Positions 37,567 to 57,862 of a stretch of 64,000 nucleotides of DNA are shown in pieces. The notes beneath the pieces are model-generated. The model saw only the letters and a program-made list of their open reading frames with translations, was not told the origin of the DNA and searched no databases. The stretch's first letter is position 1. Each line of letters opens with the position of its first letter. The translations under genes and the position numbers were made by a program. The stretch spans positions 3,523,501 to 3,587,500 of the forward strand of contig NZ_CP082966.1 of the NCBI RefSeq assembly GCF_019968605.1. The letters are read 5' to 3'. This DNA is from Polaribacter litorisediminis. GTDB taxonomy: Bacteria > Bacteroidota > Bacteroidia > Flavobacteriales > Flavobacteriaceae.

Positions 37567-37592
37567 ATCAACAAATCTACAAAACTAATTTC

Positions 37593-37677
37593 GCGTTACC
37601 GATTGAAGCGACATCCTTTTTGTTTTTTACAAAAAGATATAGCGAAAAGCGGGGTATTTCTGTTTAGAAATGAACGC
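37593..37677 (+). ncRNA. Putative structured RNA element, copy 1
   Basis: GCGTTA..GATTGAA.CG.CATCC then TTTTTG ... CAAAAAGATA.AG.G.AAAGC and a closing AACGC. Outer stem GCGTT/AACGC and inner stem CCTTTTTG/CAAAAAG can form. The same pieces in the same order occur right after sucA (49285). It lies between the cupin gene and aspS. It may be a known Bacteroidota RNA motif (for example Flavo-1), which I cannot confirm; the strand is tentative. Confidence 0.5.
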
Positions 37678-46546: not shown

Positions 46547-49282
46547 ATGGATAAATTTTCGTTCTTAAACGCAGCACATACAGGCTTTATAGGTGATTTA
46601 TACAACCAATATTTAGAACACCCGGATGCAGTAGAACCAAGCTGGAGAAGTTTTTTTCAAGGGTATGATTTTGCAAATGAAAATTATTCTTTAAAAGAAA
46701 AAGAAGAAGTTTCTGTAGAAATTCCGCAAGAAGTTAAAAAAGAATTCTTGGTGGCAGACTTGATCAACGGATACAGAACAAGAGGTCATTTATTTACAAA
46801 AACAAATCCTGTTAGAGAAAGAAGACAATACCAACCTTCTTTAGATATTGAAACCTTCGGTTTATCAAAAGACGATTTAAATAGTTATTTTTCTGCCGGA
46901 GAAATTTTGGGTTTAGGAAGAGTAACCTTATCAGAAATTATTGAGCATTTACAAAATATTTATTGCGATTCTATTGGAGTTGAATATATGTACATGCGAA
47001 ATCCTGAAAAATTAAAATGGTGGCAATCTAGATTGAATGAAAACGAGAACCACCCAAAATATTCTACCGAAGCCAAAAAGTATATTTTAGGAAAATTAAA
47101 TCAGGCAGTAACTTTTGAAAGTTTTTTACAAACAAAATATGTAGGCCAAAAACGTTTTTCTTTAGAAGGAGGAGAAACTCTAATTCCTGGAATTAGTGTA
47201 ATGTTAAGAGATGCTGCAGAAAAATATGGTGTAAAAGAGTGTGTTTTAGGAATGGCTCATAGAGGTCGTTTAAACACCTTGGTAAACATCTTTAAAAAAC
47301 CAGTTAGAGATTTATTTAGTGAGTTTGAGGGTAAAGATTTTGAAGATGAAGATATCGATGGTGATGTAAAATATCATTTAGGTTTAACACTAAGTAAAAC
47401 CTACAGAGACGGTAATGAAATCAAAATGAATTTAGTGCCAAATCCATCGCATTTAGAAACTGTAGCCGCGGTTGCCGAAGGGATTACAAGGGCTAAAATT
47501 GATAGAAAATATGCTGGTGATTCTAGTAAGATTTTACCCATCGTAATTCATGGAGATGCTGCCATTGCCGGGCAAGGAATTGCCTACGAAATAGTGCAAA
47601 TGGCAAAATTAAACGGCTATAAAACGGGCGGAACAATCCATATTGTGGTCAATAATCAAATTGGTTTTACTACAAATTATTTAGACGCACGTTCAAGTAC
47701 CTATTGTACAGATGTTGCCAAAGTAACATTATCACCGGTTTTACATGTAAATGCCGATGATACAGAAGCTGTATGCCATGCAATGCAGTTGGCATTAGAC
47801 TTTAGAATGAAGTTTCAAACTGATATTTTTATCGATTTACTGGGCTATCGTAAATACGGTCATAACGAGGGTGATGAGCCACGTTTTACGCAACCAAAAC
47901 TATACAAAGCAATTGCGAAACATAAAAATCCTAAAGATATTTATGCTGATATCTTACTAAAACAAAATTCAATAAGTTCATCTTATGTAAAAGAAATTAC
48001 AGATGAATTTAAAAGAATGCTTGAAAAAGAATTTGACAACTCTAAAAAAGATAAAAATTCTAAAGTAGAAGAGTTTATGGAATCTACTTGGGAAGGTTTT
48101 GAACGCGAAGATCAAGCAGCCATGTTGCAAGTAGTACAGACCAAGTATCCAGAAAATCGATTAAATAATATTGCAAAAGTAGTTTCTACAGTTCCTGAAG
48201 GTTCAACTTTTGTAAGAAAGGCAGAACGTATTTTGCAAGGAAGAGCTAAAATGGCATTCGAAACCCGTAAATTAGATTGGGGAATGGCAGAAAATTTAGC
48301 CTATGGTTCTTTAATGGAAGAAGGATTTAATATTCGTATTTCTGGACAAGATGTAGAAAGAGGAACTTTTTCTCATAGACATGCTATTTTGCGTGATGCC
48401 GTTACCGAAGAAAGAATTAATTTACTGAATACAAACCCCGATTCTAAAGGGCAAATGACCATTTACAACTCCTTATTGTCTGAATATGCCGTGTTAGGGT
48501 TTGATTATGGTTATGCAATGGCAAATCCGAATACATTAACAATTTGGGAAGCACAGTTTGGAGATTTTTCTAACGGAGCTCAAATAATGTTCGACCAGTA
48601 TATTTCTGCCGCAGAAGATAAATGGAAAGCTCAAAACGGAATTGTAGTTTTATTACCTCATGGGTATGAAGGGCAAGGTTCTGAGCATTCATCCGCAAGA
48701 ATAGAACGCTATTTACAATTATGTGCAGAAGATAATATGACCGTTGCAAATTGTACAACTCCAGCAAATTTCTATCATTTATTGCGTCGTCAAATGAAAC
48801 GAGATTACAGGAAGCCTTTAATTGTCTTTACGCCAAAGAGTTTATTGCGACATCCAAAAGTGGTAAGCTCCATTCAAGATTTAGCAAATGGAGAATTCCA
48901 AGAAGTAATAGACGATACGTTAAATCCAGAAAATGTAAAGAAATTAGTTTTTTGTATGGGTAAATTCTATTATGACTTACTAGAGGAAAGAGAAAAATTA
49001 GAAAGAGACGATATTGCTTTGGTAAGAATTGAGCAATTATTTCCGTTACATAAAGAAAAAATTCAGGCAATTATAGACCGATATCCAACTATTGAAGAAT
49101 ATGTTTGGGCGCAAGAAGAGCCAAGAAATATGGGAGCTTGGAGCTATATGTTGCAACGTTTTGAATTGAAAAATTTAACAGTACGTTCAAGAAAATATTA
49201 TGCAGTTCCGGCGGCTGGTTCTAGCACAAGATTCAAGAAAAGACATCGAGAAGTTATTGATAGTGTTTTTAAGATAGCGTAA
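46547..49282 (+). CDS. sucA: 2-oxoglutarate dehydrogenase E1 component
   Basis: 911 residues, normal length. N-terminal lipoyl-binding-type helix (FLNAAHTGFIGDLYNQYLEH), ThDP fold with GMAHRGRLNTLVN, IHGDAAIAGQGIAYEI and the GHNEGDEPRFTQP metal/ThDP region. The C-terminal transketolase-like domain has SGQDVERGTFSHRHA, and LLPHGYEGQGSEHSSARIER. Decarboxylates 2-oxoglutarate and passes the succinyl group to E2. Followed 200 bp later by sucB. Confidence 0.96.
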   Translation: MDKFSFLNAAHTGFIGDLYNQYLEHPDAVEPSWRSFFQGYDFANENYSLKEKEEVSVEIPQEVKKEFLVADLINGYRTRGHLFTKTNPVRERRQYQPSLDIETFGLSKDDLNSYFSAGEILGLGRVTLSEIIEHLQNIYCDSIGVEYMYMRNPEKLKWWQSRLNENENHPKYSTEAKKYILGKLNQAVTFESFLQTKYVGQKRFSLEGGETLIPGISVMLRDAAEKYGVKECVLGMAHRGRLNTLVNIFKKPVRDLFSEFEGKDFEDEDIDGDVKYHLGLTLSKTYRDGNEIKMNLVPNPSHLETVAAVAEGITRAKIDRKYAGDSSKILPIVIHGDAAIAGQGIAYEIVQMAKLNGYKTGGTIHIVVNNQIGFTTNYLDARSSTYCTDVAKVTLSPVLHVNADDTEAVCHAMQLALDFRMKFQTDIFIDLLGYRKYGHNEGDEPRFTQPKLYKAIAKHKNPKDIYADILLKQNSISSSYVKEITDEFKRMLEKEFDNSKKDKNSKVEEFMESTWEGFEREDQAAMLQVVQTKYPENRLNNIAKVVSTVPEGSTFVRKAERILQGRAKMAFETRKLDWGMAENLAYGSLMEEGFNIRISGQDVERGTFSHRHAILRDAVTEERINLLNTNPDSKGQMTIYNSLLSEYAVLGFDYGYAMANPNTLTIWEAQFGDFSNGAQIMFDQYISAAEDKWKAQNGIVVLLPHGYEGQGSEHSSARIERYLQLCAEDNMTVANCTTPANFYHLLRRQMKRDYRKPLIVFTPKSLLRHPKVVSSIQDLANGEFQEVIDDTLNPENVKKLVFCMGKFYYDLLEEREKLERDDIALVRIEQLFPLHKEKIQAIIDRYPTIEEYVWAQEEPRNMGAWSYMLQRFELKNLTVRSRKYYAVPAAGSSTRFKKRHREVIDSVFKIA

Positions 49283-49284
49283 GT

Positions 49285-49401
49285 GCGTTAAGGATTGAAA
49301 CGGCATCCTTTTTTGCTGTCAGTTCGAGTGAAATTTCTTTTTCAGAAATTTTGTATCGAGAACAAAACAAAAAAGATACAGTGTAAAGCCTGTTAAAACG
49401 C
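49285..49401 (+). ncRNA. Putative structured RNA element, copy 2, interrupted by a palindromic repeat
   Basis: Begins 3 nt after the sucA stop. GCGTTA..GATTGAA.CG.CATCC, TTTTTTG, then a TCGAG palindrome (49316-49363), then AAAAAAGATA.AG.G.AAAGC and AACGC. Same order and stems as at 37593, with the palindrome sitting in the apical loop. It is the sucA 3' region or a sucA-sucB intercistronic element. Confidence 0.5.
49316..49363. repeat. TCGAG palindromic repeat within the sucA-sucB spacer
   Basis: CTGTCAGTTCGAGTGAAATT ... GAAATTTTGTATCGAGAAC, same as the units around the GIY-YIG gene. Inner dyad GAAATTTCTTTTTCAGAAATTT. Confidence 0.8.
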
Positions 49402-50899: not shown

Positions 50900-51126
50900 C
50901 ATTGTTGTCCGATAAAAGATAAAAAGACCGCTTTCGCTGTTAGAGTAAAGAACAAAGACTTGAATGTAACTAACTGAAAAACAATATTATTATGATTTTT
51001 AATTTTTCGATACATCATAAATTCTAAAGCGGTTTTAATAGCAAGGTATACTACTTTAAAGGCTCTTCAAAATCAATACTATCCATACTTTAAAAGACTT
51101 TAGCTAATTTTAATCGGACAACACTA
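50900..51126 (+). mobile_element. MITE, 227 bp, copy 1
   Basis: Ends share the inverted repeat TGTTGTCCGAT (CAT-/TAG- outer bases differ). It is flanked by a perfect 9-bp target duplication ATTTAATAT (50891-50899 and 51127-51135). No transposase inside. Same length and high identity to copies at 55389 and 61557. Confidence 0.9.
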
Positions 51127-51139
51127 ATTTAATATAGAA

Positions 51140-51345
51140 ACATACTCTTTAGATGTTATTGAAAATAAAAGCATAGTTGCGTTACCTTTGTATATTCTAT
51201 TGAAATAGAAAGGAAATAAAAACGAATTTACTCATCCTATTTGATTTTTATTGGATATTGTATTCCATAAAGCCATAATAAATCCTCTCTTTTTTGCTTA
51301 CTTTTTATCAAAAAAAAGACTGTAAGGAAGGTTCTGCTAATTATT
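51140..51345 (+). repeat. Dispersed R3 repeat, copy 2
   Basis: GAAAATAAAAGCATAGTTGC, then AATAGAAAGGAAATAAAAAC and, further on, CTTACTTTTTATCAAAAAAA. Same order of words as at 57.0-57.2 kb. AT-rich, no gene. Confidence 0.5.
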
Positions 51346-51504
51346 TTTAATGCCGTACATCATTAAATCGTTACAAGAAAATATCCAATACAATGATTTC
51401 AAGAAGAATACAATATATTTTATTCTTTACACGTAGCATTATTCTTGTAAAAAAAAGATTTTTAAAACCAAAAATAGAAAGGCTAAAAAAAATATCTATT
51501 TATA

Positions 51505-52039
51505 AAAAAAAACTGGAGGTTATTAAAAACCTCCAGCCTCTTAAGGATATAAAAGTTATCTTTTATACCGATTCAATCCCCCAATTGACTCTTATATGCC
51601 AATTATCATTTACAATAACTGGTACTCTATTTTTTAATTTTAAATATTTTAACAAAAAGTAAAAACGGAAAGCCTAAACTTTCCGTTTTCTATGAAGTTC
51701 TTATTATTTTATCAATCAATTCCAATCAGTTAAAAACTTCTATCTCTAGAAAGATTTTACAAACGAATTTTTAAAAGACAAAATGCTAATTACTTCATAC
51801 GACCCCTGCTACTTTGCAGCAAGCAGAAATCGTTTTTAAGAAACCGAAACACCCAAATGTTTCGATTTCTTAGAAGCTATAAAATATAGTTTAAAAGACT
51901 TACTACTTAGATATTCCTATGGCTAGGAATATAAATCACAAGACCTAAAATATGTTTTATAACTCCAAAATTTAAAGGATACTGCTATCCAATAATCTCT
52001 ATTTTAAAATTTTCAAAGAACTTACTTTTTCTTATTTGC
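51505..52039 (-). ncRNA. Candidate structured ncRNA, copy A
   Basis: Predicted transcript from just after TATATTTG (52044-52051) to the terminal hairpin. Perfect boxA-like GTTCTTTGAAA at 52011-52021. In 5'-3' order: GGATA-GCAG-TATCC hairpin, ATTCCTA/TAGGAAT hairpin, a 14-bp stem AAGAAATCGAAACA / TGTTTCGGTTTCTT, CTGCT/AGCAG, AAAACGGAAAG / CTTTCCGTTTT (51662-51689), GGTATAAAAG/CTTTTATA, and the terminal CTGGAGG/CCTCCAG plus T-run (51513-51536). No sense-strand open frame of note. No protein-coding gene follows on this strand before sucB (which is opposite), so the RNA itself is the likely product. Confidence 0.75.
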
Positions 52040-52043
52040 ACTA

Positions 52044-52086
52044 CAAATATACATGCACTTTAGAGCACAGACACTGACCTAGATCA
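52044..52086 (-). promoter_or_regulatory. CRP/FNR-type promoter of ncRNA copy A
   Basis: Operator TGA-N6-TCA (52075-52086, core of ACTGATCTAGGTCAGT on the minus strand), 23 nt, then TATATTTG (52044-52051). The operator centre falls about 41 nt before the expected start, the class II activator position. Confidence 0.8.
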
Positions 52087-52234
52087 GTTAGGGAGTTTTT
52101 TTTTATAAAAAATATTTTATACCAATTCTGTATTTCTTTTTGATTGTCTATAAAATAGTCCTTGGCTTTATTCTACAATTAAAAAGAGGTTTCTTTAAAT
52201 TAAAAATGAGAAGCCTAAAAGATAATCTATGTAT

Positions 52235-52766
52235 AAAAAAAACTGGAGGTTATTAAAAACCTCCAGCCTCTAAGTATGAAAGCTACCTTTCATACCGATT
52301 CAATCCCCCAATTGACTCTTATATGCCAATTATCATTTACAATAACTGGTTCTCTATTTTTTAATTTTAAATATTTTAACAAAAAGTAAAAACGGAAAGC
52401 CTAAACTTTCCGTTTTCTATGAAGTTCTTATTATTTTATCAATCAATTCCAATCAGTTAAAAACTTCTATCCCTAGAAAGATTTTACAAACGAATTTTTA
52501 AAAGACAAAATGCTAATTACTTCATACGACCTCTGCTACTTTGCAGCAAGCAGAAATCGTTTTTAAGAAACCGAAACACCCAAATGTTTCGATTTCTTAG
52601 AAGCTATAAAATATAGTTTAAAAGACTTACTACTTAGATATTCCTATGGCTAGGAATATAAATCACAAGACCTAAAATATGTTTTATAACTCCAAAATTT
52701 AAAGGATACTGCTATCCAATAATCTCTATTTTAAAATTTTCAAAGAACTTACTTTTTCTTATTTGC
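52235..52766 (-). ncRNA. Candidate structured ncRNA, copy B
   Basis: Nearly identical to copy A. boxA-like GTTCTTTGAAA at 52738-52748; terminal hairpin CTGGAGG/CCTCCAG at 52243-52266. Where A has GGTATAAAAG paired with CTTTTATA, B has GGTATGAAAG paired with CTTTCATAC: an A-U pair changed to G-C on both sides. Confidence 0.75.
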
Positions 52767-52770
52767 ACTA

Positions 52771-52813
52771 CAAATATACATGCACTTTAGAGCACAGACA
52801 CTGACCTAGATCA
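52771..52813 (-). promoter_or_regulatory. CRP/FNR-type promoter of ncRNA copy B
   Basis: TGA-N6-TCA at 52802-52813, 23-nt spacer, TATATTTG at 52771-52778, identical in layout to copy A. Confidence 0.8.
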
Positions 52814-52960
52814 GTTAGGGAGTTTTTTTTATAAAAAATATTTTATACCAATTCTGCATTTCTTTTTGATTGTCTATAAAATAGTCCTTGACTTTATTCT
52901 ACAATTAAAAAGAGGTTTCTTTAAATTAAAAATGAGAAGCCTAAAAGATAATCTATGTAT

Positions 52961-53493
52961 AAAAAAAAACTGGAGGTTATTTAAAACCTCCAGCCTCTAA
53001 GTATGAAAGCTACCTTTCATACCGATTCAATCCCCCAATTGACTCTTATATGCCAATTATCATTTACAATAACTGGTACTCTATTTTTTAATTTTAAATA
53101 TTTTAACAAAAGGTAAAAACGGAAAGCCTAAACTTTCCGTTTTCTATGAAGTTCTTTTTATTTAATCCATCGATATCAATCAGTTAAAAAATTCTAACTT
53201 TAGAGAATTTTAAAAACGAATTTTCAAAAGAAAAAATGCTAATTACTTCATACGACCTCTGCTACTTTGCAGCAAGCAGAAATCGTTTTTAAGAAACCGA
53301 AACACCCAAATGTTTCGATTTCTTAGAAGCTATAAAATATAGTTTAAAAAGACTTGATATTTATATATTCCTATTGCTAGCAACATATATCACAAGACCT
53401 CAAATATGTTTTATAACTCCAAAATTTAAAGGATACTGCTATCCAATAATCTTTATTTTAATATTTTCAAAGAACTTACTTTTTCTTATTTAC
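52961..53493 (-). ncRNA. Candidate structured ncRNA, copy C
   Basis: Same order of hairpins; boxA-like GTTCTTTGAAA at 53465-53475; terminal hairpin 52970-52993 with a slightly changed loop. The ATTCCTA stem is weakened here (TTGCTAGCAA). It lies downstream of the L,D-transpeptidase gene on the same strand (stop at 53752) but has its own promoter. Confidence 0.75.
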
Positions 53494-53497
53494 ATTA

Positions 53498-53540
53498 CAA
53501 ATATACAGGCGATTTAAAGCATAAACACTGACCTAAATCA
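53498..53540 (-). promoter_or_regulatory. CRP/FNR-type promoter of ncRNA copy C
   Basis: TGA-N6-TCA at 53529-53540, 23-nt spacer, TATATTTG at 53498-53505. Confidence 0.8.
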
Positions 53541-53751
53541 GTTAGCGTGTTTTTTTTAAAAAAATGTTTTACCCTAATTTAAACTTACAACCCCTTCCAT
53601 AAATTGTTACTTTTTCGCTTACTTTTTATCAAAAAAAATTAGTTAAAACTGCTATTTGTTCGATTAAAATAAAAAGCCTAAAGCAATTTTGATTTCTTTT
53701 TAGGTACTATTATCTTGTAAATATCAATATGCTAAAAATCTCTTAAGTATT

Positions 53752-54696
53752 TTAATTCTTCTGATATCCATAGATATCCTCTAATAATATCTGCTCTCCA
53801 GATTCATCAACAATAGTAAGATTGTAGTTAATGTTTATTTTAGTTCCTAATGTTGCGTGGTAGTATATAAGCCAAGCAGCGGCTTCATTAGTGGCAATAC
53901 AACCATTAGAATAAGGTTTGCCCAATGAAATAGGATTGGTGGTAGGATGAATCATTTGCCCATTTCTGATACCATTTATCTCTGTTTCAATAAAAGGAAT
54001 TTGAGGTAATCGCGTCACTTTTTTATCATCTCTAGTGGTACTAAAATACTGCTTACCGTTTACAGGATCGTAATAATCAGGATTCCTGATATGATCAACA
54101 ATACTTCCGGTTCCAGTAATAGTTCTTAAATCGGTTACTCTATTGCCCATTTTTAAGTATTTCTTTTCATTTCTGCCTACTCTAATGGGAAACTCATATA
54201 ACAAAACTGAATCTTCATAAATGCGAAGTTTATATTCTGGTATATTCACATCTATAATTGTGTTTTGAAACGAAGAAATAATTTCTTCCGCTTTTGCTAA
54301 AACAGGAACCATAAAGACACTATTTTTTTTTAACACAACCATTTCTCTTTGATTGTATACAAAAGAATCTTTGGCTTTCATTCTATAATAATCAGTATTT
54401 TGAAGTCTATCAATAATCCGAGGATTTGCTCTTACCAAAAGATGTTCTGTTAAAGAATATGGTGTTAAGGAGTCATAACGAGTCACTAAAGAGTCTATAA
54501 ATTCAAAATAATGCTTAACAGTGATATTTTTTTTTACGTGAATAGTAAACAAAGTGTCATTTACAACAACTACTGTTTGGGTAATTTTATTCTGTGAAAA
54601 GTTTTGTCTATTATTTTCTTTAAGATAGTATAATAAGACGATTGCCAATCCTACCATTCCAAAAAGTTTGCTATATATTTTATTGAATAAGTGCAT
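53752..54696 (-). CDS. L,D-transpeptidase (YkuD domain)
   Basis: 314 residues, N-terminal membrane anchor (about 10-28). YkuD catalytic domain at about 150-290: IIDVNIPEYKLRIYEDSVLL, the His of MIHPTTNPISL and the nucleophile Cys in KPYSNGCIATNEAAAW. The motif is SNGC instead of the common S/T-HGC. Crosslinks peptidoglycan (3-3 bonds) or attaches outer-membrane proteins in the periplasm. It sits between ncRNA units C and D. I see no CRP/FNR operator of its own, so read-through from the unit D promoter (about 620 nt upstream) is one possible source of expression. Confidence 0.88.
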   Translation of the reverse strand: MHLFNKIYSKLFGMVGLAIVLLYYLKENNRQNFSQNKITQTVVVVNDTLFTIHVKKNITVKHYFEFIDSLVTRYDSLTPYSLTEHLLVRANPRIIDRLQNTDYYRMKAKDSFVYNQREMVVLKKNSVFMVPVLAKAEEIISSFQNTIIDVNIPEYKLRIYEDSVLLYEFPIRVGRNEKKYLKMGNRVTDLRTITGTGSIVDHIRNPDYYDPVNGKQYFSTTRDDKKVTRLPQIPFIETEINGIRNGQMIHPTTNPISLGKPYSNGCIATNEAAAWLIYYHATLGTKININYNLTIVDESGEQILLEDIYGYQKN

Positions 54697-54812
54697 TTAA
54701 ATTGAATAGGAATGAGTAACGAATCTTTTATTTTTTAATTCTCTAGTTGAATTGTATTTGTAAAAAGAGAATTCTTTAAAATTAAAACAGAAGGCCTAAG
54801 AAATTACTTATT

Positions 54813-55313
54813 TATAAAAAAACTGGAAGCTATAAAAACCTCCAGCTTTTTGGTGGCATAAAAAACTTTTTATACCGATTCAATTCCCCAATTGACTCTT
54901 ACTATTTTTTTAATTTATACTGTAATTTATAAAAGTAAAAACGGAAAGCCTGAACTTTCCGTTTTCTATGAAGTTCTTTTTATTTTATTTATAAATACCA
55001 ATCAGATAAAAAATTCTATCTCTAGCAAATTTTTACAAACGTATTTTTAAAATAAAAATGTCAATTACTTCATATAACTTCTCCTACTTTGCCATAAGCA
55101 GAAATCATTTATCAAAGAAATCGAAAACCCCAAATATTTCGATTTCTTGGAAGATATAATGTAGTTTAAGAATACTTGCTCTTTCTATAATCCTATTGCT
55201 AGAAACATATATCACAACACTTAAAATACGTTTTATAACTCCAAAATTTAATGGATATTACTACCCAAAAATCCACACTTTAATGCTTTCAAAGAACTTA
55301 CTTTTACAAGTAC
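54813..55313 (-). ncRNA. Candidate structured ncRNA, copy D (upstream of the L,D-transpeptidase)
   Basis: boxA-like GTTCTTTGAAA at 55287-55297. Terminal hairpin (54823-54845) is CUGGAGG paired with CUUCCAG, that is, one G-C of copies A-C has become G-U. The long stem here pairs AAGAAATCGAAA with TTTCGATTTCTT, removing the G-U of A-C. GGGTA/TATCC replaces GGATA/TATCC. Ends about 115 bp before the L,D-transpeptidase start on the same strand, so it could act as its leader. Confidence 0.72.
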
Positions 55314-55317
55314 ACTG

Positions 55318-55360
55318 CAAATATACATGCGCTTTATACTATAAGAACTGACCTAGGTCA
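55318..55360 (-). promoter_or_regulatory. CRP/FNR-type promoter of ncRNA copy D
   Basis: Perfectly palindromic operator CTGACCTAGGTCAG (TGA-N6-TCA at 55349-55360), 23-nt spacer, TATATTTG at 55318-55325. Confidence 0.82.
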
Positions 55361-55388
55361 GTTGGAGTATTTTTTTTATATAAAAAGT

Positions 55389-55615
55389 TATTGTTGTCCG
55401 ATTAAAATTAGCTAAAGTGTTTTAAAGTCTTGATAGTCTTGATTTTAAAGAGTTTTTAAAGTAGTACACCTTGCTTTTAAAACCGCTTTAGAATTTATGA
55501 TGTATCGAAAAATTTAAAATCGTAATAATATTGTTTTTCAGTTAGTTACATTCAAGTCTTTGTTCTTGATTCTAACAGCGAAAGCGGTCTTTTTATCTTT
55601 TATCGGACAACAATG
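55389..55615 (-). mobile_element. MITE, 227 bp, copy 2 (inverted)
   Basis: Ends ATTGTTGTCCGAT / ATCGGACAACAAT, flanked by the 9-bp duplication ATAAAAAGT (55380-55388, 55616-55624). Opposite orientation to copies 1 and 3. Inserted just upstream of the ncRNA D operator, between it and the end of the OmpA gene. Confidence 0.9.
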
Positions 55616-55671
55616 ATAAAAAGTATTTTATACTAATTCTCATTTGAAATTAATTGGTATCACAAAAAGTA

Positions 55672-55703
55672 AAAACGAAAAGCGTGAACTTTTCGTTTTC
55701 TAA
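55672..55703 (-). terminator. Terminator of the OmpA gene, related to ncRNA hairpin
   Basis: AAAACGAAAAG / CTTTTCGTTTT (55672-55699). It is a covarying version of the AAAACGGAAAG / CTTTCCGTTTT hairpin found in all five ncRNA units, including the preceding AAAAAGT. Confidence 0.75.
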
Positions 55704-55729
55704 AAAGTTAATTATTAACTTCTATAATT

Positions 55730-56608
55730 TTAGTTTGAAGACACCGTTTCTGGCATTGCTAGCAAATTAAAAAATTCATCTAATTTTGGAATAATAATAA
55801 TTTCGGTTCTACGATTAGATGCTCTACCCTTTGAAGTTTTATTGGTGTCTTTTGGCATATATTCAGATCTTCCACCGGCCGTCATTCGTTCTGGCTGCAC
55901 ATTAAAATTAGTTTGCATTAACCGGACAATAGCTGTTGCTCGCTTGGTACTTAAATCCCAATTATCTTCCATACAATTTGTTTTGATAGGAACTGTATCT
56001 GTGTGTCCTTCAACAAGAATATCTAATTCTTTGTGATCATTGACAATTTTTGCTATTTTACCAATAACGGCTTGTGCAGATTTATGAACTCTATAACTAC
56101 CCGATTTAAATAGCATTCTGTCTGAAATAGAAACATATACAACTCCTTTCTTAACCTCAATATTTATGTCTTCATCGTCAAAATTATTTAAAGATTTTTT
56201 CAAATTCATGACCAGTGCAAGGTTTAGAGAATCTTTTTGTTGCATAGAGTTTGTTAAATCTTTAATATATGTGTTTTGTTCATTTAAAGCCTCTAAAGAC
56301 TTCTTAATGCTTTCTGCCCCAAATTTACTGACAATAGAAAGATCAGAAAGTCTCTCTAATAAATTGGTGTTTGTACTTTTAAAATAATCAGATTCTTTTT
56401 CTAATACCTTCACCCTATTTTTTTCATTCGCTAGGTTATTTTCGATTACTAAGAGTTCGTTAGACTTTGTTTCTAGTTCGTTTAAAGTAGTTCTAAGTTC
56501 GCCCTCACAAACTGCCACACTGTTTTCTAAATCTGTATATTTTTTCTGACTTACGCAGGATGTTAAAAGTGTCAGAACAATAATAGTAGTAAACTTTATA
56601 ATTTTCAT
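55730..56608 (-). CDS. OmpA-family lipoprotein
   Basis: 292 residues. Lipoprotein signal (IIVLTLLTSCVSQKKYTDLE, Cys 18), long coiled coil (about 25-135, with regularly spaced Leu/Asn/Glu), then the peptidoglycan-binding OmpA domain (about 160-285: VEGHTDTVPIKTNCMEDNWD, LSTKRATAIVRLM, GRASNRRTEIIIIPKL). Anchored in the outer membrane and holding the cell wall. Controlled by the CRP/FNR-type promoter at 56649-56691. Confidence 0.9.
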   Translation of the reverse strand: MKIIKFTTIIVLTLLTSCVSQKKYTDLENSVAVCEGELRTTLNELETKSNELLVIENNLANEKNRVKVLEKESDYFKSTNTNLLERLSDLSIVSKFGAESIKKSLEALNEQNTYIKDLTNSMQQKDSLNLALVMNLKKSLNNFDDEDINIEVKKGVVYVSISDRMLFKSGSYRVHKSAQAVIGKIAKIVNDHKELDILVEGHTDTVPIKTNCMEDNWDLSTKRATAIVRLMQTNFNVQPERMTAGGRSEYMPKDTNKTSKGRASNRRTEIIIIPKLDEFFNLLAMPETVSSN

Positions 56609-56648
56609 TTTGTTTAGTTTTAATGATTAATACTGAAATATTTATTAG

Positions 56649-56691
56649 CAAAGAAACCCACAAAAGTTAATTGAATCAATGACGTGAATCA
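56649..56691 (-). promoter_or_regulatory. CRP/FNR-type promoter of the OmpA lipoprotein gene
   Basis: Operator ACTGATTCACGTCATT (TGA-N6-TCA at 56680-56691, minus strand), 23-nt spacer, TTTCTTTG (56649-56656) in the -7 position. Same spacing as the ncRNA promoters. Confidence 0.72.
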
Positions 56692-56822
56692 GTTATAACC
56701 TAAATATACCCTTCGTTAAGCATTGATTTTTAAATATTTAAACATATCGTATTTTATTTAAGTCCAATAATGATTGTTATTTTATAATAATTTAACTAAT
56801 TGTATATCACTATGATCTAAAC

Positions 56823-56993
56823 GGTGGAATAACCGCAATAAAGAACAGACTACTTATTTATGAGTTTCAAAACAAAATAATCTTAACTAAAATTGTAAAT
56901 CTATTCTGTATTGAAACCTATAATCATCTTCCAAATTTCTTTAAAAAAGAGGAATTCTTTCTTTGGTTCTATAAAAAAGTGAGAGCCGTGTAA
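56823..56993 (+). pseudogene. Remnant of a paralogue of the sigma-like gene at 58035
   Basis: An open stretch without a good start reads LTKIVNLFCIETYNHLPNFF then KKEEFFLWFYKKVRAV and a stop (56991-56993). The 58035 protein has LNNLIDQLFIETYDHIENFS then DDDEFYIWLYKKTNEI at the same place. About half of the aligned residues agree. Both the N- and C-terminal parts are lost. Confidence 0.65.
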
Positions 56994-57019
56994 CATTATT
57001 TTAATCAAATAATGTTACA
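56989..57019. other. Strong AT-rich hairpin
   Basis: TGTAACATTATTT / AAATAATGTTACA, a perfect 13-bp stem with a 5-nt loop, right after the sigma-like remnant. It has no T-run on either side, so it is not an obvious terminator. Confidence 0.4.
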
Positions 57020-57029
57020 ATAAATCGTC

Positions 57030-57245
57030 TTTTTATGGCTTACTTTTTATTAAAAAAATGAGCATAACGAAGACTACATGAATGCTGTTTTAAAATTACT
57101 GTAAAATAAAATGATGATTTTTTTCTTTATAGAAAATAGAAAAATAAAGCATCGCATTCGTTACGATTTCTTTTTATGTTGAAATAGAAAGGAAAAAAGG
57201 GTGTTTTATTGAGGGCATTTCAATGCAGAATTGGTATCATGTAAA
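57030..57245 (+). repeat. Dispersed R3 repeat, copy 3 (intact, empty MITE site)
   Basis: CTTACTTTTTATTAAAAAAA, then TACTGTAAAATAAAATGATG, AAAATAAAGCATCGCATTCG and GTTGAAATAGAAAGGAAAAA. Almost the same sequence at 61500-61890 is split by MITE copy 3; here the target ATAGAAAAT (57129-57137) is unfilled. Confidence 0.6.
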
Positions 57246-57306
57246 TTCACTTAAAGATTGCTTCATATTTTAAAGAGTTCAATTTGTAAAAAAGGTAATT
57301 TCTATT

Positions 57307-57815
57307 CATAAAAAAACTGGAAGCTATAAAACTTCCAGTCTAATAATGGTCTGAAAATTAATTTTCATACCAACCCCAACTATTACTGTTATGCTTAGGT
57401 CTTATTAAGCACATATATTTTTAATTCTTTTTTAAAAGAGTAAAAACGGAAAGCCTAAACTTTCCGTTTTCTATGAAGTTCATATTATTTTATCTAGCAA
57501 TACCAATTAATTAAAAAATTCTATCTCTAGCAAATTTTTACAAACGGATTTTTAAAAGAAAAATGCTAATCACTTCATACGATCTCTGTTACTTTGCAGC
57601 AAATAGAAATCATTTTTTTAAAGAAATCGAAACACCGAAATGTCTCGATTTCTTCGAAGATATTAAATGTAAATCGAAGACTACTTGTTCTTTATATACT
57701 TCTATATACATCACAAGACTTAAAAATACACCTCAATAACTCCAAAATTTATTAGATATTACTATCCAATAAATTATCTTTTATCAAATTATCAAAGAAC
57801 TTGTTTTTTAATTAT
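57307..57815 (-). ncRNA. Candidate structured ncRNA, copy E
   Basis: The most diverged copy. boxA-like GTTCTTTGATA at 57790-57800. Terminal hairpin (57317-57338) pairs CUGGAAG with CUUCCAG, a full A-U replacement of the G-C seen in A-C. The AAAACGGAAAG hairpin (57443-57470) is unchanged. GGATA pairs with TATCT. Upstream of the OmpA gene by about 700 bp on the same strand, with repeats between. Confidence 0.72.
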
Positions 57816-57819
57816 ACTA

Positions 57820-57862
57820 CAAATATACAGTCACTTTATAGCCTCTAAAATGACCGGGGTCA
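57820..57862 (-). promoter_or_regulatory. CRP/FNR-type promoter of ncRNA copy E
   Basis: TGA-N6-TCA at 57851-57862 (TGACCGGGGTCA, plus strand), 23-nt spacer, TATATTTG at 57820-57827. Confidence 0.8.

Follow-up and report, generated by a model that had tools for sequence, protein, structure and literature searches.

In bacteria, few large structured RNAs lack an assigned role. CsrB, RsmY and RsmZ are sponge RNAs with many hairpins and a repeated cap; the CsrA-type site is GGA, which CsrB and RsmZ repeat in hairpin loops. OLE, GOLLD and ROOL are included in Rfam 15. In the excerpt of PMC12286853, they are described as large, ornate RNAs that form homo-oligomers. 6S-Flavo (RF01685) and Flavo-1 (RF01705) were presented as structured RNAs of Bacteroidetes by Weinberg et al. 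2010 (excerpt of PMC2864571), and Rfp18 of Flavobacterium psychrophilum is needed for precise protease expression (excerpt of PMC9723704).

Here, we analysed a 64-kb window, i.e., the whole stretch of DNA under study, which contains five units designated A-E. Like OLE, GOLLD and ROOL as described in that excerpt (PMC12286853), the units correspond to a large bacterial RNA with an elaborate conserved fold. They differ in matching no Rfam model, and no match to the OLE, GOLLD or ROOL models of Rfam 15 was obtained in the window or in 23 loci. These three RNAs are not known to have a boxA, a CRP-type operator or tandem copies. The units resemble rRNA operon leaders, as excerpted from PMC4807359, in that a long untranslated RNA has a boxA close to its beginning, but they are not rRNA and have their own regulated-looking promoter and terminator-like end. 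With CsrB, RsmY and RsmZ they share a comparable length, numerous hairpins and a recurring cap, whereas their caps are GNRA, seldom GGA, and they contain long-range stems. Neither the 6S-Flavo nor the Flavo-1 model matches the units; Flavo-1 was found elsewhere in the window. The small RNAs of F. psychrophilum (Rfp18 and others) are likewise flavobacterial and non-coding, a likeness by description only, and their expression is condition-dependent according to the excerpt of PMC9723704.

Units, copy number and identity

The five minus-strand units reported in the first-pass annotation were all confirmed at the same coordinates:

51505-52039, minus strand: unit A, whole (core RNA and 3′ module); R3 match 51782-52002, E = 4.9e-31, A belonging to the R3 seed
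52235-52766, minus strand: unit B, whole; R3 match 52509-52729
52961-53493, minus strand: unit C, whole; R3 match 53235-53456
54813-55313, minus strand: unit D, whole; R3 match 55057-55278
57307-57815, minus strand: unit E, whole; R3 match 57562-57779

A whole-genome DNA search yielded seven copies and two short matches. The description as a five-copy family holds for the window, but the genome total is seven, with two copies outside it (C1:4223693-4224255 and 4224398-4224937). Units A and B are identical in 522 of 535 columns, which points to a recent duplication, so this pair provides no independent evidence. The length of ~500-540 nt given earlier applies to the whole units with the 3′ module, whereas the conserved RNA core is shorter, about 350-390 letters. 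The core spans boxA to P7 (AAAACGGAAAG..CTTTCCGTTTT), and four copies in genome G016 stop at P7. The terminal hairpin regarded as the unit end is present in A-E, but it is part of a 3′ module that varies; the core ends at the inner hairpin:

51662-51689, minus strand: hairpin P7 of A, the terminator-like hairpin at which the core ends
52389-52416 (B), 53116-53143 (C), 54938-54965 (D), 57443-57470 (E), minus strand: hairpin P7
51513-51536, minus strand: outer terminator hairpin of A, in the 3′ module
52243-52266 (B), 52970-52993 (C), 54823-54845 (D), 57317-57338 (E), minus strand: outer terminator hairpin

Both stems that had been quoted for compensatory change are located in this variable module, outside the conserved core. 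Their letters were confirmed: the terminal stem is CTGGAGG/CCTCCAG in A-C, CTGGAGG/CTTCCAG in D and CTGGAAG/CTTCCAG in E, and the inner stem is ATGAAAG/CTTTCAT in B and C and ATAAAAG/CTTTTAT in A.

The longest sense ORF had 12-60 codons in 21 cores. By eye, units D and E, both further copies of the genome and G154 share a partly similar open frame that covers P3-P4; in A-C, G016, G107, G029 and G072, the longest ORF is a different one or very short. A protein gene was rejected on the ORF lengths and because only some copies keep this frame open, in agreement with the earlier statement that no coding frame is conserved. A dispersed mobile element was rejected as well, on the yield of the whole-genome search and the position of an interspersed repeat outside the units; the units are thus unlikely to match any known transposon or protein gene. 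This repeat is 140 bp long, gave 40 scored matches across the genome and borders units A-D in inverted orientation.

At gathering scores, Rfam 15 gave one tRNA and two Flavo-1 matches in the window, all outside the units. The 23 distinct loci, searched with E limits of 0.5 or 1, gave one tRNA, sau-19 (E 0.08) and MIR6459 (E 0.35), the latter two far below their cut-offs. A known Rfam family was therefore rejected for the units and the 23 loci, as anticipated by the first-pass annotation, which knew of no matching family. A literature search that extended to few subscription journals, directed at such an RNA, at a known catalogue and at the regulon, found no description of the RNA, and the family is apparently undescribed.

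Fold and covariation

Two-sided change was observed in 45 of 58 base pairs among 31 copies. Covariation in the alignment, which was fitted to an earlier model, amounted to 0.452 versus 0.248 in shuffles (sd 0.009; none of 500 reached 0.452), and the best slid control gave 0.158. A lack of covariation above background was thereby excluded, and the proposal that the RNA fold and not the DNA is under selection was sustained. We consider it very probable that the units are genes for a structured non-coding RNA family.

Comparison also revealed the fixed order of hairpins expected for each unit: P2, P3, P4, P5, P6 and the terminator-like P7. P3 is a long interrupted stem enclosing a hairpin that is often GNRA-capped, and P6 is a long-range stem around a second hairpin often capped in the same way. 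Helix P4 was located as follows:

51838-51871, minus strand: helix P4 of A; two-sided change in 12 of 15 pairs, 31 copies
52565-52598 (B), 53291-53324 (C), 55115-55148 (D), 57621-57654 (E), minus strand: helix P4

The paired letters of P6, which is in no model, differ among genera (TATGAAGT/ACTTCATA, GTAAAGGAATGG/CCATTTCTTTAT, GTGAAAAG/CTTTTCAC). In a search that takes the best helix, without a control, P6 scored at least 8 in 27 of the 36 copies with P7 found and below 8 in nine; 3 of 39 matches were without P7, and some of the P7 assignments seem to be mistaken (L091, L165, L176). All ten cores tested folded more stably than their dinucleotide shuffles (40 per core), with z from -2.2 to -11.2. 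No invariant long unpaired stretch was found among the compared copies.

In a set of 96 units, GNRA accounted for 33 of 57 tetraloop hairpins inside P3 and 31 of 59 inside P6; at the P2 cap it was a minority (9/35). The motif UA-GNRA-UA occurred 122 times in these units versus about 8 expected from shuffles, and its reversed form 10 times, with no UA-GNRA-UA in 27 control stretches. For this motif, the tetraloop caps and the operator-boxA pairs described below, the shuffles were first-order Markov.

Putative promoter, boxA-like element and distribution

Upstream of and at the beginning of each unit, the following elements were found:

52075-52086, minus strand: operator of A, TGATCTAGGTCA
52802-52813, minus strand: operator of B, TGATCTAGGTCA
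53529-53540, minus strand: operator of C, TGATTTAGGTCA
55349-55360, minus strand: operator of D, TGACCTAGGTCA
57851-57862, minus strand: operator of E, TGACCCCGGTCA
52044-52051, minus strand: -7 element of A, TATATTTG
52771-52778 (B), 53498-53505 (C), 55318-55325 (D), 57820-57827 (E), minus strand: -7 elements
52013-52021, minus strand: boxA-like element of A, GTTCTTTGA (compare the 16S leaders)
52740-52748, minus strand: boxA-like element of B
53467-53475, minus strand: boxA-like element of C; with the following letters, 19 of 21 as in the 16S leaders
55289-55297, minus strand: boxA-like element of D
57792-57800, minus strand: boxA-like element of E

The Bacteroidetes -7 consensus is TAnnTTTG. 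The succession of TGA-N6-TCA, exactly 23 nt and TATATTTG that had been ascribed to each unit was present in all five and also in both further copies of the genome. The operator palindrome, with up to two mismatches, occurs 5 times in the 64 kb versus 0.35 expected. It is centred about -41.5 from the inferred start, before the -7 element, i.e., in class II CRP/FNR-type geometry. A CRP-type promoter is a supported prediction, and this part of the former CRP/FNR designation stood, given the operator geometry, a nearby receiver-CRP protein and the same operator before the regulator operon. Oxygen control via FNR was not supported, the candidate regulator being a fusion of response regulator and CRP-type domain.

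The sequence AAGTTCTTTGA has exactly five exact occurrences in the window, one per unit. With one mismatch, there are 9 versus 5.4 expected, and 9 of 100 shuffles reach 9; this total is unremarkable, so the motif's weight lies in its place. It stands near the predicted transcript start, as in rRNA-type boxA units, and its position is conserved. One of nine bases differs from GTTCATTGA of both 16S leaders in the same genome, an element that we take to be boxA by its likeness to boxA sequences; the leader's own form is present in three remote copies. The boxA-like element claimed previously is thus found in all five units, and the resemblance to the 16S leaders supports its assignment, made on sequence, as a putative boxA.

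The second covariance model was built without operator and boxA, yet of the 20 loci in other genera 14 have both at near-fixed spacing. Altogether, 39 pairs were counted in 26 loci and the window, versus 0.5 per shuffled set, four of the 39 appearing incidental by place (the second of G244, those of G220 and G526 and the second of G398). No pair fits the pattern in G570, G308, G313 and G219; together with the apparently incidental pairs of G220 and G526, this gives the figure of 14. Among the six remaining loci, variant forms were seen by eye in four (G220, G526, G308, G313). A scan by operator and boxA alone, with one genome per species, returned 85 stretches; the 80 listed were sorted by record names into 52 from Flavobacteriaceae and 28 others. 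Among the matches listed, the RNA is present in 42 of the 52 and in none of the 28. The 52 are not all independent, since four hold R3 seed sequences, six share DNA with earlier loci and eight pairs have DNA in common with each other.

The search of Flavobacteriaceae genomes with covariance models, suggested by the first-pass annotation, recovered the RNA in 25 of 397 genomes and 23 of 237 genera; within the genus, a credible RNA was found in 6 of 166 genomes. Strict filters were applied in searches of more than 40 genomes, so these prevalences are lower bounds. The patchy occurrence implies that most species do without the RNA. The RNA-bearing genera include Maribacter, Arenibacter, Winogradskyella, Kordia, Aquimarina and Gelidibacter, which makes direct testing possible. 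So far, the RNA is known from Flavobacteriaceae only; the samples at order and phylum level include many genomes of Flavobacteriaceae. Inspection by eye led us to discard two matches: G092 (E 7.8e-4), a hairpin that resembles a terminator and follows a protein gene, and G1023/L150 (E 4.8e-4), which resembles coding DNA and is without operator or boxA.

Neighbouring genes and possible function

The RNA genes are part of a stress-gene island that also encodes a receiver-CRP regulator (domains Response_reg, cNMP_binding and HTH_Crp_2) and a PAS histidine kinase, and this type of island recurs in other genomes. A receiver-CRP protein is encoded near many RNA copies; the loose limits used for regulator and kinase neighbours (1e-8, 1e-12) admit related proteins, and at 1e-50 only 7 regulator matches were obtained among the 52 Flavobacteriaceae stretches. 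The neighbour queries were taken from the window and 4 of 26 loci. The operator and spacing of the RNA recur before the regulator's own kinase operon and before genes identified by eye as those for peroxiredoxin, universal stress protein, YtxH-like protein and KatG. A close regulator orthologue was found in 15 of 25 RNA-bearing genomes versus 13 of 372 others (p = 1.6e-13), at a limit of E <=1e-110 chosen after viewing the list; the other 10 have a more distant relative only. By its domains, neighbourhood and operator, this protein is the candidate regulator, presumably driven by the adjacent kinase. One universal adjacent partner protein was rejected, as an unnamed 161-aa family is convergent within 2.5 kb in just 10 of 74 loci. 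Two small neighbours were provisionally labelled hemerythrin-like (HHE); Pfam or NCBIfam assigned no family to those that were tested. Plasmid records searched with one neighbouring gene gave no match.

In the proposed mechanism, stress would lead the PAS kinase to activate the response regulator fused to the CRP-type domain, which would bind the operator and switch on transcription of the RNA. The boxA would load Nus factors that shield the untranslated RNA from Rho and aid its folding, and multiple copies would raise the dose. The folded RNA may then serve as a trans-acting structural scaffold that is probably complexed with protein or with itself; this is the least certain step, and we propose it tentatively. 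Taken as a whole, the explanation by a stress-made, trans-acting structural RNA, whose transcription, binding and function are predicted, appears to us slightly better than even. The earlier reading of a regulated, multicopy, large non-coding RNA is supported. It is conceivable, and on balance doubtful, that the family represents a new large RNA machine, stress-induced and GNRA-rich, with boxA loading, several copies and its own terminator like a small rRNA, whose assembly with itself or with protein would let marine flavobacteria manage dormancy or energy stress; none of the RNA families searched is related to it. We know of no described family that combines an rRNA-like boxA, a CRP-type operator common to stress genes, tandem copies and repeated GNRA hairpins. 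This raises the question of why a stress RNA carries the entry signal of rRNA antitermination.

Other functions were weighed against the scaffold. In the manner of CsrB or RsmZ, the UA-GNRA-UA hairpins could sequester a regulatory protein under stress. At least three such motifs are present in 18 of the 96 units and two in 19, and several copies per genome would multiply the binding sites. However, 30 units are devoid of the motif, GGA was found in just 40 of 1011 hairpin loops of these units (3-8 nt, stems >=6 bp, overlapping loops included), the long-range P3 and P6 exceed what a sponge needs, and no partner protein is known; we regard this role as unlikely. A base-pairing sRNA, with a short exposed stretch directed at stress-response target mRNAs, would fit the stress-type promoter and terminator, and a GTAAGTGGTC-like stretch recurs by eye in several genera. 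This function is distinctly unlikely, given that little unpaired sequence is invariant and that two-sided change extends across most of the modelled length.

The terminator-like P4 and P7 also agree with a cis-acting leader or attenuator, where boxA would govern the passage of polymerase through both hairpins into a downstream gene. In 23 of 45 loci, the gene that follows is co-directional, and in Arenibacter stretches L160, L207, L211, L214 and L224 operator and boxA lie about 400 nt before a gene start. The next gene is convergent in 21 loci, however, just five of the co-directional genes start within 150 nt (measured from an approximate P7 end), and tandem copies each have their own operator and P7. 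On the next-gene orientations, a leader was rejected as a general rule, and we consider this function very unlikely. A role at the level of DNA, in which the regulator would be titrated by arrays of operators or the units would be a repeat propagated by duplication or mobile DNA, is favoured by the tandem copies and by the interspersed repeat beside units A-D. It is highly improbable, as base-pair covariation indicates RNA, the interspersed repeat falls outside the units, and the RNA is held by the same type of island in other genomes.

Architecture and fold of the RNA units

The first-pass annotation had proposed, within positions 51503-57862 of the minus strand, a five-copy non-coding RNA with boxA and CRP/FNR-type promoters. 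A re-reading of the window sequence bore out the positions of all five units (A-E). Each unit carries the operator (a palindrome of the TGA-N6-TCA type), exactly 23 nt, TATATTTG, and then AAGTTCTTTGA. Allowing up to two mismatches, the 64 kb contain five operator palindromes versus 0.35 expected. BoxA alone, with one mismatch allowed, is no rarer in the window than by chance and therefore counts through its position. Its assignment as boxA is supported by its likeness to GTTCATTGAAAATATTGAAAT, present in both 16S leaders of the same genome about 110 nt upstream of the 16S start; GTTCATTGA is present again farther upstream in both. Unit C is closest to the 16S leader (19 of 21 letters), A and B agree in 18, and D and E are weaker beyond boxA. 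The leader form GTTCATTGA was found in three remote copies (G308, G347, and G526). According to excerpts of PMC4807359, boxA loads NusB/NusE in Escherichia coli and, with SuhB, rRNA maturation is aided; untranslated RNA can also be shielded from Rho by boxA.

Two further copies elsewhere in the genome bring the total to seven. Rfam 15 at gathering scores returned nothing at the units; the only matches in the window, all outside the units, were one tRNA and two Flavo-1 RNAs.

Flavo-1 matches in the window
37588-37660, plus strand, Flavo-1 RNA (RF01705), Rfam match
49272-49399, plus strand, Flavo-1 RNA (RF01705), Rfam match

Alignment with the four tandem copies of a congener (G016) placed the 3′ end of the conserved RNA at hairpin P7. 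In P. litorisediminis a variable second module with its own terminator lies downstream of P7; in G016 a similar 3′ module was seen by eye behind the last copy only. The two examples of compensatory change in the first-pass annotation are correct; both lie in this variable module, and the stronger evidence is in the core (boxA to P7). In a 21-copy alignment (seven loci, six genomes), cores of 354-389 nt have the order boxA, P2, P3, P4, P5, P6, P7. The same order was broadly recovered in minimum-energy folds of 22 diverse copies, with weaker agreement among the most divergent (G249 and G072, for example). Core stability was above that of shuffles in all ten cores tested (z -2.2 to -11.2), and, as had been claimed, the reading frame is not well conserved across cores.

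Covariation was upheld in a 31-copy alignment, with two-sided change at 45 of 58 pairs; this alignment had been fitted to an earlier model, which biases it towards structure. The covariation score was 0.452 versus 0.248 (sd 0.009) for shuffles, none of 500 being as high, and did not exceed 0.158 in a control with the partner column slid by 1-3 positions. Helix P6 is absent from every model; its paired letters differ between genera, and it scored at least 8 in 27 of 36 copies in a best-helix search run with no control. The units very probably represent a real structured RNA family.

Among 96 units, GNRA loops cap the inner hairpin of P3 in 33 of the 57 units having a tetraloop hairpin there, and that of P6 in 31 of 59; these caps have an A-U closing pair, with N and R variable. 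UNCG loops are frequent at P4 (32/75) and P7 (18/48), and GNRA is a minority at P2 (9/35). The motif UA-GNRA-UA occurs 1.27 times per unit versus 0.086 in shuffles, or 122 times in all units together versus 10 for the reversed motif. It is absent from 30 of the 96 units and from all 27 control stretches.

Positions 55643-55709, directly behind an OmpA-family gene, resemble the units at P7 (79% identity). A 140-bp repeat (51001-51140 and 55375-55514, inverted, 90% complementary) flanks units A-D and an L,D-transpeptidase gene. It has at least 40 matches in the genome, itself included (90-100% identity; 40 scored of 106 candidates), and its sequence appears MITE-like.

Distribution of the RNA and of the operator-boxA pair

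Three successive covariance models were used. With R1 (10 sequences), 7 of the 166 genomes in the genus gave a match at E ≤1e-3, our own counted, and 6 were left after G092 was discarded by eye. The copies per genome were 7 in our own, 4 in G016, 5 in G107, 3 in G029, and one each in G154 and G072; R1 found two of the G029 copies, and the third, spotted by eye, entered the next seed. R2 (16 sequences, operator and boxA omitted) matched 21 of the 397 genomes in the family at E ≤0.01. R3 (31 sequences) matched 25 of these 397 genomes, representing 23 of the 237 genera, at E ≤1e-3; matches from outside its seed include G220 (7.7e-12), G526 (6.6e-11), G347 (1.6e-10), and G445 (1.8e-10). In 246 order and 296 phylum genomes, samples that contain many family members, the sole match outside the family (L150) was discarded by eye. 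The RNA is not described in Rfam 15 or in the published literature searched, and it did not qualify as OLE, GOLLD, or ROOL. It may work in the manner of large ornate RNAs.

The operator-boxA pair served as an independent test. It was present at the RNA in 14 of 20 other-genus loci, though R2 contained neither element. In total, 39 pairs, four of which seem incidental by position, were found in the window and the 26 loci fetched, versus 0.5 per shuffled set; the distance is 57-78 nt, nearly always 60-66. In the reverse test, the operator-boxA DNA pattern only was searched in one genome per species (84,980 species), yielding 85 stretches. Judged by their titles, the 80 stretches listed comprise 52 from Flavobacteriaceae and 28 others. 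R3 matched 42 of the 52 and none of the 28; of the 52, four contain R3 seed sequence and 8 pairs have DNA in common. The identification of the family as Flavobacteriaceae derives from DNA common to six stretches, fetched or titled. The ten Flavobacteriaceae stretches without an R3 match appear diverged, shortened, or different.

In Sinomicrobium (L193, L202), two tandem operator-boxA units are shorter, differ in sequence, and have no R3 match. One 27-nt hairpin, CTAAGCAGYAATGCCTTAGCGGYCATA, is conserved: allowing for as many as three substitutions, it was found once each in 31 of 107 stretches scanned, frequently beside the RNAs, and in none of 28 controls. Since L085/L155/L187 and L091/L206 share DNA, the distinct places number fewer than 31. 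The hairpin is perhaps P2 of a second RNA subtype.

Example sites of the 27-nt hairpin
L087:9788
L163:4094
L194:3824

In five Arenibacter stretches (L160, L207, L211, L214, and L224), operator and boxA precede the 27-nt hairpin and a hairpin resembling P4; the gene downstream of these starts with MEYYFNKTIGNTPFEKAV in four of the five (by eye).

Candidate regulator and possible role

The candidate regulator, receiver-CRP, has the domains Response_reg, cNMP_binding, and HTH_Crp_2. In the P. litorisediminis genome its gene lies directly downstream of its PAS kinase gene on the same strand. The operator with identical spacing precedes this kinase gene, as well as the genes for a peroxiredoxin, a universal stress protein, a YtxH-like protein, and KatG (products by eye). 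The genome contains 70 matches to a loose operator pattern (at most one mismatch) versus 10 to the reversed control; given this number, the pattern probably also covers operators of further CRP-family regulators. Of the 25 RNA-bearing genomes, 15 have a close regulator orthologue, versus 13 of 372 others, and the remaining 10 RNA-bearing genomes have a more distant relative only. In the 20-kb regions of 26 loci, we found relatives of the regulator (17), universal stress proteins (14), phosphoribosyltransferase (13), PAS kinase (12), PEP synthase (9), and Hsp20 (8); labels were partly by eye and queries were drawn from four of the 26 loci and the window. Among the 8-kb scan stretches listed, relatives of one or more of the 26 query proteins are encoded in 44 of 52 from Flavobacteriaceae versus 3 of 28 controls; with a strict cut-off of 1e-50, seven regulator matches are left.

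Of 45 loci, 21 have a convergent next gene and 23 a co-directional one, which starts within 150 nt in only 5. This orientation and distance indicate that the RNA is generally not a leader, and that general role was rejected. Invariant unpaired sequence is scarce across the copies; together with the lack of a well conserved frame, this makes a structural role in trans the best fit. Action as a sponge or as a base-pairing sRNA is less likely. For the structural role in trans, we propose that under stress the receiver-CRP regulator would switch on RNA synthesis, that boxA would help to protect and fold the RNA, and that the multiple copies would increase its dose. The functional step of this mechanism is offered tentatively.

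Of 74 loci, 10 encode, convergent with the RNA, a 161-aa protein family without a match in Pfam or NCBIfam (L021:11206-11691, minus strand).
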